Below are positions 26,279 through 29,854 of a stretch of 64,000 bases of DNA, piece by piece. The stretch is from Candidatus Scybalocola faecipullorum. Lineage in GTDB: Bacteria; Bacillota; Clostridia; Lachnospirales; Lachnospiraceae. A model generated the notes under the pieces. That model did no database searches. It was given only the letters and a program-made list of their open reading frames with translations, and was not told the origin of the DNA. A program made the translations under genes and the position numbers. The DNA lies in the NCBI GenBank assembly GCA_018716485.1, contig DVJY01000054.1, positions 1 through 64,000 on the forward strand, read 5' to 3'. Position 1 is the stretch's first letter. Every line of letters begins with the position of its first letter.

Positions 26279-26332
26279 TTTACACAAAATTTACAAAAAC
26301 ATGACAGAGATTTTACCGGGATTTCATATAAT
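26279..26332 (+). promoter_or_regulatory. Pho box (PhoP-type operator) and promoter
   Basis: Four direct repeats lie at an exact 11 bp period: TTTACA (26279), TTTACA (26290), ATGACA (26301) and TTTACC (26312). A perfect TATAAT follows at 26327-26332, with no good -35 element. Arrays of TTAACA-like hexamers separated by five bases are the known PhoP binding pattern of Firmicutes and replace the -35 at activated promoters. The first repeat overlaps the end of the MATE gene region. Confidence 0.78.
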
Positions 26333-26440
26333 GAGGCATATTTTATTGGAAGCTGACGGATGTATGATGAAAATGCAGTACTATCGGCTTTGATGCGCAG
26401 TGTATAGTTATCAGAAATGTTAGAATGCGGGAGAGAAATT

Positions 26441-28108
26441 ATGGAAGATATTCAAATGCTGTTTGGCTTTATCGGCGGCCTTGGATTGTTCCTTTACGGT
26501 ATGCATATGATGGCTGACGGACTGCAGAAGACTGCCGGAAACAGGATAAAAAATCTCATGGGTCAGGCGGCGGACCATCGGATGATGGGTATTTTTGCCG
26601 GCGCCGCAGTGACGGCAATGCTTCAAAGCAGTTCAGCAGCAACGGTAATGATTGTCGGATTTGTGAATGCCGGTATTATCGGACTGAGTCTGGCAGTCGG
26701 CATTATTATGGGAGCCAATATCGGTACGACAGCGACAAGCTGGCTTGTGTCCATGCAGGAAATCGGCAATGCTTTAAATCCGGAATTTTACGCGCCGCTG
26801 CTGATCGGCGTCGGTGTATTTTTAATGCTGTTTTGCAAAACATTCGGCAAAAAACAGATTGGGGAAATTCTGACGGGACTGGGCGCCTTATTTACAGGAC
26901 TGAGTTTTATTTCCGGCGCCATAGAGGCTTACAGTCATGCCGCTGTCTTTGAAAAGATATTTGATACGCTTGGAAACTTTCCGTTGCTCGGGCTGCTGAC
27001 AGGTACGGCGGTAACAGCTCTGCTTCGGAGTTCTTCTGCGTCCATCGGTGTTTTGCAGACAATGGCGTTTCACGGCATGGTTCCATGGGATGCGGCAGTA
27101 TATATCATACTCGGTCAAAATATCGGAACATGTATAACGACGCTGATTTCAGGTGCAGGCGCAAAAAATTATGCCAAGCGGGCAGCGGTGATCCATCTTT
27201 TATTCAATGCGTTCGGATCGGTTATTTTTGGGATCGGGATGTCTGCTGTGTTTGTTATTTGGCCGTCATTTGCCAATGCTATGACTGACAGTATCCGGAT
27301 ATCGATTTTCCATACGGTATTTAACATCATAAATACATTGATTTTATTCCCATTTACTGATAAACTGATTAAGTTATCAGGTATGATTGTAAAAGATAAA
27401 AAGAAAGATACAGATACACAGGAGAAGCTGACAGAAGAAAGCGATTTTCTGAGACACCTTGACCGGCGTATTTTAGAATCGCCTGCATTTGCCGTACAGA
27501 ATGCAGCTGAAGAAGTTGTACAGATGGCGGAAATTACTATAAAGAATATTGAAGATTCTTTTGAAGCCATTTTGGATAATAATGCCGAAAAGATAAAGTC
27601 AGTCTGCGAATGTGAAAAAAGTATTGACCGTATGGCAAAGCGGCTTTCGGACTATTTGATCAAAATCAGCCGCCTGTCATTGAGTGAAGATGAAAATACA
27701 CTTGTCAATCATCTGTTCTATTCGGTCAGCGATATTGAACGCATGGGCGATCATGCGGAAAATATTGCGGATTTGGCAAAGTATAAACTGGAAAATAAAA
27801 TCGCATTTTCTGAGACAGCAAAGCGCGAACTGGAAGGCCTTATGACATATGTGATCAATGGTCTGAGTTATGCACTTAAAGCACGGCAGGAAATGGAGCT
27901 TGCTTTTGTTGAAAAAGAAAAAGAATATGAAGATTTGGTCGATTATGTAGAAAGCGAGCTTCGGGAGAAACATATTGAGCGTCTGGCTCAGAACCGATGC
28001 CAGCCGGCGTCGGGGATTGTCTATTTGGATGTCTTGAGCAATCTCGAAAGAATTTCGGACCATGCCGATAATATCGCAGGGTATGTGAAACGTGAACTAA
28101 AGAAATAA
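26441..28108 (+). CDS. Na+/phosphate cotransporter (NptA/PF02690) with C-terminal PhoU domain
   Basis: Membrane transporter for inorganic phosphate. Two inverted repeats carry the substrate motifs: LQSSSAAT near residues 61-68 and LRSSSASI near 194-201. Eight or nine helices cover residues 5-300. Residues 340-555 form a helical PhoU-like domain (IERMGDHAENIADLA and LERISDHADNIAGYV are the paired metal-binding ExxxDHAxN motifs). PhoU domains report phosphate status to PhoR kinases. The ATG at 26441 is chosen over 26417 for the RBS-like GGGAGAG upstream. A Pho box precedes it and a PhoPR-like pair follows, so the unit is probably phosphate-starvation induced. Confidence 0.93.
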   Translation: MEDIQMLFGFIGGLGLFLYGMHMMADGLQKTAGNRIKNLMGQAADHRMMGIFAGAAVTAMLQSSSAATVMIVGFVNAGIIGLSLAVGIIMGANIGTTATSWLVSMQEIGNALNPEFYAPLLIGVGVFLMLFCKTFGKKQIGEILTGLGALFTGLSFISGAIEAYSHAAVFEKIFDTLGNFPLLGLLTGTAVTALLRSSSASIGVLQTMAFHGMVPWDAAVYIILGQNIGTCITTLISGAGAKNYAKRAAVIHLLFNAFGSVIFGIGMSAVFVIWPSFANAMTDSIRISIFHTVFNIINTLILFPFTDKLIKLSGMIVKDKKKDTDTQEKLTEESDFLRHLDRRILESPAFAVQNAAEEVVQMAEITIKNIEDSFEAILDNNAEKIKSVCECEKSIDRMAKRLSDYLIKISRLSLSEDENTLVNHLFYSVSDIERMGDHAENIADLAKYKLENKIAFSETAKRELEGLMTYVINGLSYALKARQEMELAFVEKEKEYEDLVDYVESELREKHIERLAQNRCQPASGIVYLDVLSNLERISDHADNIAGYVKRELKK

Positions 28109-28125
28109 ATCAGTCTGCATACCAG

Positions 28126-28148
28126 CCTGCGGTTTTTCCGCAGGTTTT
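28126..28148 (+). terminator. Intrinsic terminator after the phosphate transporter
   Basis: CCTGCGG (28126-28132) pairs with CCGCAGG (28138-28144) over TTTTT and is followed by TTTT. It may be partly read through into the two-component genes. Confidence 0.8.
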
Positions 28149-28188: not shown

Positions 28189-28872
28189 ATGAAATCAATG
28201 ATTTATTATGTAGAAGACGATAATAATATTCGCGAGCTTGTGGTATATGCTTTGAAATCCTCAGGCTTTGACGCCGCAGGCTTTGACAGCGGCAAAACGT
28301 TTTTCAGGGAAATGCGCCGTCAGCTGCCAGAGCTGATTTTGCTGGATATTATGCTGCCGGATGAAGACGGCATGTCCATATTAAAAAAGTTAAAAAAGAC
28401 AGAATCAATGAAGGACATTCCGGTAATCATGCTGACGGCAAAGTCTGCGGAATATGATAAGGTGATCGGACTGGATACCGGCGCCGACGATTATGTGACA
28501 AAGCCTTTTGGGGTTATGGAACTTGTATCCAGGGTCAAGGCTGTTCTGCGGCGCAGCGGCAGGAAAGAGCAGAAACCGCAAAACATGGTGCTTGATGACA
28601 TTCATCTGGACAGAGAACGGCATACTGTGACTGTCGGCGGACAGCCGGTAGAGTTAACATATAAGGAATTTGAACTGCTCGATTATTTAATGCGAAACCA
28701 GGGCATTGTTCTGAGCAGAGAAAAACTGCTGGAGGTCGTATGGAATACGGATTACGAAGGTGAAAGCCGGACCGTTGATGTGCATATCGGTTCTCTGCGC
28801 CAGAAACTTGGAGAGAGCGGCAGAAAGATACAGACCGTCCGCGGTGTCGGATATAAAATGGAGATGATGTAA
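28189..28872 (+). CDS. phoP: OmpR/PhoB family response regulator, probable PhoP
   Basis: Receiver domain with phospho-acceptor D53 (LLDIMLPDEDG), acidic pocket EDD at 9-11, and the switch TAKS lysine. It is joined to an OmpR-type winged helix (about 130-227; YKEFELLDYLMRNQGIVLSREKLLE, with RTVDVHIGSLRQKLG as the recognition helix, here noted in two parts). The assignment to phosphate control rests on its place after a Na/Pi-PhoU gene with a Pho box, not on the sequence alone. GAGGAGG precedes the ATG. It ends one base before the kinase start. Confidence 0.88.
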   Translation: MKSMIYYVEDDNNIRELVVYALKSSGFDAAGFDSGKTFFREMRRQLPELILLDIMLPDEDGMSILKKLKKTESMKDIPVIMLTAKSAEYDKVIGLDTGADDYVTKPFGVMELVSRVKAVLRRSGRKEQKPQNMVLDDIHLDRERHTVTVGGQPVELTYKEFELLDYLMRNQGIVLSREKLLEVVWNTDYEGESRTVDVHIGSLRQKLGESGRKIQTVRGVGYKMEMM

Positions 28873-28873
28873 A

Positions 28874-29854
28874 GTGAGAAAAAAAATATATAAAAAAATG
28901 CTCATACTTTCCGGCTCTGTGTTGGGTGGTTTTGCAGCAGGCGGCGCGCTGATCCTCTATCTGGCATGGTGCTTTAAGATTCCGGCCGCCATCGCAGCCG
29001 CCGCTGAAGTGATATGGCTGGTGATCTGTTATCTGATTGCCGTAAAAACATCGGGAAAAATGACGAAAAAAATTGTACAGCCGATTCAGAAAATTGATTT
29101 GAAGCATCCGGAAAAAGGGTGTGTCTATGAAGAAATGCAGCCGATTTTGCTGCGGATGGGGAGGCAGAAGAAGATGCGTCAGAAAAACGAAAAACTCAGA
29201 CAGGAATTTTCGTCCAATGTTTCTCACGAATTGAAAACACCGCTGACGTCTATTTCAGGATATGCGGAACTTTTGATGAACGGCATGGTTCCTCCGGAAG
29301 ATGTGCCTTCATTTTCTGCAAAAATTTATAATGAAGCAGGCCATATGATCCGTTTGATTGATGATATTATCAAACTGTCCAAACTGGATGAGCGCCCGAC
29401 TGAGATTGAAAAAGAACCTGTGGATCTTTACGAAATGGCAACAGACGCGGCAAACCGGCTTGAAATGCTTGCTAAGAAAAACCGGGTGACAATGCATGTG
29501 GAAGGTGCCCATACAGAGATTCAGGCTATCCCTCAGATGACAGAGGAATTGATTTATAATCTTTGTGAAAATGCGATAAAATATAATAAAACGGGCGGTT
29601 CGGTGACCGTGACAGTCGGTCAGGAAAATGATAAAGGGAAAATTGTTGTAAAAGATACGGGCATCGGTATTCCGGAAAAATATCAGGATCGTGTCTTTGA
29701 ACGCTTTTTCAGAGTAGACAAGAGCCATTCCAGACAGATTGGCGGCACGGGACTCGGCCTTGCAATCGTGAAACATATTGTTGAGTATCATGGCGGAGAT
29801 ATCCGTCTGGAGAGCAGACAGGGACATGGAACAACGTTTACGGTGGTGATGTAG
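28874..29854 (+). CDS. phoR: Sensor histidine kinase, probable PhoR, minimal membrane input
   Basis: 326-residue HisKA/HATPase kinase. H118 lies in FSSNVSHELKTPL, the N box is NLCENAIKYN, and the G boxes are DTGIGIP and GGTGLGLAIVKH. Two hydrophobic helices (about 10-33 and 38-56) are separated by only a few residues, so there is no extracytoplasmic sensor domain and no clear PAS domain. Input is therefore likely to come through the membrane or through PhoU-type contacts. The GTG start is ten bases after GGAG within the phoP end. It forms a coupled pair with phoP. Confidence 0.88.
   Translation: MRKKIYKKMLILSGSVLGGFAAGGALILYLAWCFKIPAAIAAAAEVIWLVICYLIAVKTSGKMTKKIVQPIQKIDLKHPEKGCVYEEMQPILLRMGRQKKMRQKNEKLRQEFSSNVSHELKTPLTSISGYAELLMNGMVPPEDVPSFSAKIYNEAGHMIRLIDDIIKLSKLDERPTEIEKEPVDLYEMATDAANRLEMLAKKNRVTMHVEGAHTEIQAIPQMTEELIYNLCENAIKYNKTGGSVTVTVGQENDKGKIVVKDTGIGIPEKYQDRVFERFFRVDKSHSRQIGGTGLGLAIVKHIVEYHGGDIRLESRQGHGTTFTVVM

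Follow-up and report, generated by a model that had tools for sequence, protein, structure and literature searches.

The element at positions 26279-26332 of the window (the whole stretch of 64,000 nucleotides analysed here, from Candidatus Scybalocola faecipullorum) is very probably a Pho operator, predicted to control the Na/Pi cotransporter gene nptA that follows it. Its box pattern is specific in the genome, conserved among relatives in a fixed register with the -10 element and linked to phosphate genes. A single suspected motif thereby becomes a tested and searchable definition of phosphate-starvation promoters across a large gut-bacterial family.

The original prediction described four hexamers, TTTACA, TTTACA, ATGACA and TTTACC, followed by TATAAT with no -35, as the PhoP operator of Firmicutes standing before a Na/Pi-PhoU gene and a PhoPR-like pair. 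All these coordinates are correct to the base (Table 1), and both the pattern and the domain profiles of the encoded proteins agree with this putative assignment. When the four hexamers (24 fixed bases) were searched with at most 3 mismatches, one match was found in the window and none in 100 shuffles of it. As described, no canonical -35 hexamer is present 16-18 nt before TATAAT, the bases there being CAGAGA, ACAGAG and GACAGA; ATGACA matches TTGACA at 5 of 6 positions, yet it is located 20 nt from the -10. A MATE transporter gene has its stop codon 2 bp ahead of the operator, and 108 bp separate the operator from the likely start codon of nptA, taken as 26441, an in-frame ATG being present further upstream at 26417. 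The nptA product reaches 227 bits with TIGR00704 (cut-off 210) and is above the cut-off for PF02690 and PF01895.

Table 1. Features of the predicted operator locus and of the pst site (positions in the window unless a contig is given)
Feature	Position	Strand	Remarks
Pho box 1, TTTACA	26279-26284	+	read directly; invariant among relatives
Pho box 2, TTTACA	26290-26295	+	start +11 from box 1; invariant among relatives
Third 11-bp unit, ATGACA	26301-26306	+	unconserved in relatives; overlaps the -35 place
Downstream Pho box (position 4), TTTACC	26312-26317	+	start +33; conserved in relatives
-10 element, TATAAT	26327-26332	+	starts 15 bases after the downstream-box start, 9 bases between
nptA-type Na/Pi cotransporter with C-terminal PhoU domains	26441-28108	+	PF02690 6e-58, PF01895 8e-26
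Terminator-like hairpin, nptA-phoP gap	28124-28146	+	9-bp stem, U-rich tail
PhoP/PhoB-type response regulator, nptA-linked lineage	28189-28872	+	Response_reg and Trans_reg_C; tree
PhoR/PnpS-like histidine kinase, 326 aa	28874-29854	+	HisKA and HATPase_c alone; no ectodomain, no PAS
pst-site operator, TTTACA-N5-TTAACA-N17-TTTACA-N9-TAGTAT	C2:2543-2597		before pstSCAB-phoU; 1 mismatch

The genus is represented by a single genome, which precludes within-genus footprinting. The comparison was made at the family level, in a survey of 250 genomes (the named relatives being mostly Lachnospiraceae) with the reversed pattern as control. Of the 250 genomes, 41 contain the exact array TTTACA-N5-TTTACA-N16-TTTACA, against 4 matches for the reversed pattern; for the exact N17 form, 35 sites were recorded in 33 genomes out of the 250, with a single control match. 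Among 30 N16 sites examined, 26 are upstream of an nptA gene on the same strand, at a distance of 39-239 bp, and 1 is directly before phoP-phoR; the 30 N17 sites examined include 19 before pstS and 9 before nptA. Thus 55 of the 60 examined exact three-box arrays are upstream of nptA (35), pst (19) or phoPR (1), and these phosphate-uptake and phoPR genes were reached without any gene information in the search pattern. The motif had been expected at other phosphate genes, and it does occur there: besides these family arrays, the pst operon of the same genome has an operator, and the pstS promoters of relatives bear the same layout. Exact arrays that do not precede known phosphate genes were also seen in other genomes: near a gene for a GH18-like secreted protein carrying repeated surface domains (L210), near a transcription regulator and a solute-binding protein (L205), near either a phosphofructokinase-like gene or one of unknown function (L206) and near a condensation-domain-like protein (L330).

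Neither search pattern, N16 or N17, contained a -10 element. Nevertheless, every one of the 27 exact N16 sites has the T, A and T of TANNNT at +48, +49 and +53, matching the window, and 25 of the 30 exact N17 sites have TANNNT at +49. When 19 nptA promoters were aligned on boxes 1 and 2 only, boxes 1, 2 and 4 appeared strongly conserved, together with the A-T preceding each of boxes 1 and 2. The columns of the third unit, which falls at the would-be -35, have an information content near zero, and ATGACA of the window is therefore probably not an essential repeat. The description as a four-repeat box is thus true of the window sequence, built of four 11-bp units, and does not carry over to the conserved design, which consists of three boxes plus a fixed -10. 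The genome and family searches show a predicted family Pho operator of the form TTTACA-N5-TTTACA-N16/17-TTTACA-N9-TANNNT. Spacing varies with the gene that follows, N16 sites being before 26 nptA and 0 pst genes and N17 sites before 9 nptA and 19 pst genes (Fisher 4e-8, a value that overstates independence because the sites come from related species). This exact operator is usable in other genomes, with nptA-type and pst-type sites being separable.

The operator is also associated with gene order. In a set of 60 nptA promoters from 80 family genomes, where a full operator was defined by at least 17 of 21 positions, it is present before 19 of the 22 nptA genes with phoP next, before 5 of the 38 others and in 0 of 1,200 shuffles (Fisher 2e-8). 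A second genome set, which may have some species in common with the first, was scored for boxes 1 and 2 and gave 15 of 17 nptA genes with an adjacent phoP versus 7 of 62 without. The operator is missing at three nptA-then-phoP loci (G022, G037 and G041), whose scores are only 13-14 of 21.

Within its own genome, a 2.67 Mb draft searched for the full operator allowing at most 3 mismatches (reversed-pattern controls 0), the window site is the sole match of the N16 form. The N17 form recovers the pst site and two sites with 3 mismatches. One of these, TTTGCA-N5-TTAACA-N17-TTAACA-N9-TATACT (G000:C44:25477-25531, L311 1501-1555, minus strand), is about 45 bp upstream of an operon with three GT2 glycosyltransferases and recalls the Pho-controlled wall polymer genes of B. 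subtilis. The other match (G000:C66:28381-28435, L312 1501-1555, plus strand) is weaker and may be due to chance; it precedes a gene for a membrane protein without a Pfam match, then an ABC ATPase gene (ECF-transporter-like). The PstS encoded on the pst contig (L017 2668-3618, G000:C2) has its halves swapped relative to the Pfam model and to most solved PstS, and several PstS proteins of the family match it end to end. This apparent circular permutation was not retained as a novelty, the protein aligning end to end with the solved chain 4h1x_A (phosphate-binding protein pstS 2). A second nptA is located on another contig (C27:16-1656, minus strand). A Pho-like array on the plus strand there (L018 1729-1781), with TATACA at 1729, TTTACG at 1740, TTTACA at 1750 and 1761 and TATAAT at 1776, 15 bases after the last box as in the window, is opposite in strand to this nptA and overlaps its upstream region. 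It is directed away from nptA and runs into the last part of a HAD hydrolase gene; it might serve in repression or give rise to an antisense transcript.

Looser searches were abandoned. In the same genome, the two-box pattern is too weak as a search tool (57 matches versus 39 in the control), and four-box scoring with flexible spacing gave spurious low-p matches in AT-rich spacers, so that a fixed model was used instead. Perfect box pairs occur at C3:51230 and C61:23235, but neither is part of a full operator and the neighbouring genes are unrelated. The array TTTACG-N5-TTTACA-N5-ATGACA before a D-Ala-D-Ala carboxypeptidase gene (C45:6274-6301, L002 1501-1528, minus strand) was rejected as an operator because the downstream box and the in-register -10 are missing; it could be a WalR-type site or the result of chance.

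The best NCBIfam model for the regulator encoded at 28189 is PhoB (TIGR02154, 6.6e-73), which scores 244.7 bits compared with 199.1 for YycF. Since the equivalog cut-off for PhoB (296.2 bits) is missed, this protein is named here PhoP-type and its placement relies on the tree. The kinase encoded at 28874 is closest to the PnpS, WalK and PhoR models, PnpS being the best and all being below their cut-offs, and it has two hydrophobic stretches with hardly any loop separating them. The nptA-linked kinases of other species are mostly of 438-473 aa with an extracytoplasmic region, a region that the window kinase has apparently lost. A PAS domain and, in Gram-positives, such an extracytoplasmic region are characteristic of PhoR sensor kinases. 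A second PhoP/PhoR pair is found on contig C2 beside pstSCAB-phoU, with the pst-linked PhoP at C2:6772-7437 and a kinase carrying sCache-like and PAS domains. The two pairs share 57% identity for the regulators and 52% for the kinases, and the recognition helices are near-identical (RTVDVHIGSLRQK in the window regulator, RTVDVHIRTLRQK in the pst-linked one). A tree of 49 regulators places the window protein in a 22-member group of which 20 members are nptA-linked (support 88/86), and the pst-linked regulator of the same genome in a mostly pst-linked group; these separate groups indicate that the two pairs are old paralogues. The question is then raised of why there are two PhoP/PhoR pairs, one of them with a kinase stripped of its sensors.

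The original prediction also held that the operator gives a function to the two-component system beside it. This claim is unsupported by the operator, which alone cannot single out the 28189 regulator because a second, closely similar pair sits with pst, and either PhoP, or both, could bind at 26279. Linkage and tree favour the nptA-linked PhoP lineage, including the 28189 regulator, as the putative binder. In the nearest relative of this regulator (G059), an exact operator is directly before the phoP-phoR genes themselves, a placement that favours a possible autoregulation in this lineage. On balance, we consider the linked 28189 regulator a reasonably good candidate for the main binder, with probably some overlap from the pst-linked PhoP.

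The strongest competing explanation keeps the Pho operator and makes the pst-linked PhoP its main binder, the 28189/28874 pair having another or a modulatory role. We regard it as possible but doubtful: the pst operon bears the same operator, the regulators are similar, recognition helices included, the pst-linked kinase is complete where the window kinase is reduced, and three nptA genes without an adjacent phoP keep the full operator; however, the operator tracks nptA-then-phoP loci in both promoter sets, it precedes the regulator gene itself in the nearest relative, and spacing differs, being mostly N16 at nptA and mostly N17 at pst sites. A WalR (YycF) site on the other strand is far less probable. 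WalR targets are cell-envelope genes, whereas nearly all the examined exact arrays (55 of 60) precede phosphate transporters or phoPR, and a two-box site leaves unexplained the third box and the -10, both conserved in fixed register and orientation. Moreover, the loose pairs of the genome exceed their control by a small margin only, and the linked regulator scores higher as PhoB than as YycF. The attraction of this explanation is that the reverse complement of boxes 1 and 2, TGTAAA-N5-TGTAAA on the minus strand, fits the consensus TGTWAH-N5-TGTWAH, at least in the form quoted for B. subtilis and applied to C. difficile (PMC9210968), and related regulators may cross-bind at the box pair.

It is also improbable that PhoP binding mainly represses, nptA being lowered upon induction of Pst. 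B. subtilis does have Pho-repressed promoters (review PMC4415409), and the array overlapping the upstream region of the second nptA from the opposite strand would be in agreement with such a role. At 26279, however, 9 bp lie between the last box and the -10, the boxes stand in for the -35, and the same layout precedes pst. Activated Pho promoters have their boxes just upstream of the -10, in place of the -35, and to our knowledge pst is activated in all well-studied species. As for chance repeats in an AT-rich spacer, with nptA driven by an ordinary promoter, short AT-rich hexamers are common and loose pairs are widespread in the genome; this explanation can nearly be dismissed, being strongly contradicted by the comparative data, with an operator conserved across genera in a fixed -10 register, in addition to the absence of matches in the 100 window shuffles and the single match in 2.67 Mb. 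The Pho operator controlling nptA, which we retain as the predicted reading, has several points against it: the PhoB and PhoR models are matched only below cut-off, the window kinase has no PAS domain, a second PhoPR pair exists in the genome, a terminator-like hairpin separates nptA from phoP, and three nptA-then-phoP loci elsewhere have no operator.

From this layout we infer that PhoP binding would activate rather than repress nptA. At low phosphate, molecules of the phosphorylated PhoP-type regulator would bind in head-to-tail order along a single DNA face, covering boxes 1 and 2 at about -60 to -44 and, at about -27 to -22, the downstream box. They would thereby bring RNA polymerase to the TATAAT at 26327, itself without a usable -35. 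Binding of phosphorylated PhoP head to tail on 11-bp repeats that replace the -35 is the accepted mode of action at Pho promoters (review PMC4415409). The Na/Pi cotransporter would then rise. The terminator-like hairpin behind nptA (z -2.6 for the folded segment 28106-28165) weakens the connection of the promoter to phoPR, and most relatives with the same gene order have a short nptA-phoP gap and no hairpin; the window phoPR genes are probably read by leakage past it, giving more transporter than regulator, and this readthrough would raise PhoPR in a positive feedback. Through its PhoU domains, the transporter could finally signal uptake to the kinase. Transcription of nptA is under PhoPR control in S. 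aureus, where the PhoU domain of NptA in turn modulates PhoPR (PMC13170248). We infer by analogy that the same logic may apply to the window, with both partners encoded in one locus. In E. coli PhoR, the PAS domain is the contact for PhoU. A rather speculative extension is that the family holds two old parallel PhoP lineages, one linked to the symporter with its PhoU domains and to N16 operators, the other to Pst-PhoU and N17 operators, and that the stripped window kinase may sense phosphate solely through the PhoU of the transporter.

Little direct study of phosphate regulation was found in the literature for this gut-bacterial family, and the operator is best compared with systems described elsewhere. 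The PhoP consensus of B. subtilis, in the form quoted from Liu and Hulett 1998 (PMC12404567), is TT(A/T/C)ACA-N4-6-TT(A/T/C)ACA; three of the four window units, TTTACA, TTTACA and TTTACC, fit or nearly fit it, with a spacing of N5. The element resembles the B. subtilis Pho box in its hexamer, its spacing of about 11 bp, its location on the gene strand directly upstream of a -10 without a -35 and its association with phosphate genes. It differs in the family design of boxes 1, 2 and 4 around an unconserved third unit, in the strict register, TANNNT beginning 15 bases from the first base of the last box, and in the spacing, mostly N16 at nptA sites and mostly N17 at pst sites. The E. coli PHO box is made of two 11-nt repeats (CTGTCAT-type) bound by PhoB head to tail (review PMC4415409); as in that case, the 11-bp direct repeats of the window stand in for the -35, but the hexamer differs and the array is longer (about 39 bp). 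The WalR box shares with the window two hexamers at the same spacing, on the opposite strand, and differs in having two boxes only, cell-envelope targets and no link to phosphate genes. As in the PhoPR-nptA system of S. aureus, the NptA-type transporter carries a PhoU domain; unlike in S. aureus, nptA is immediately followed by the genes of the regulator pair, and pst comes with another PhoPR pair. Pho boxes of Firmicutes and the control of nptA by PhoPR are already known; the operator is ordinary in kind, and it is more precisely defined here.
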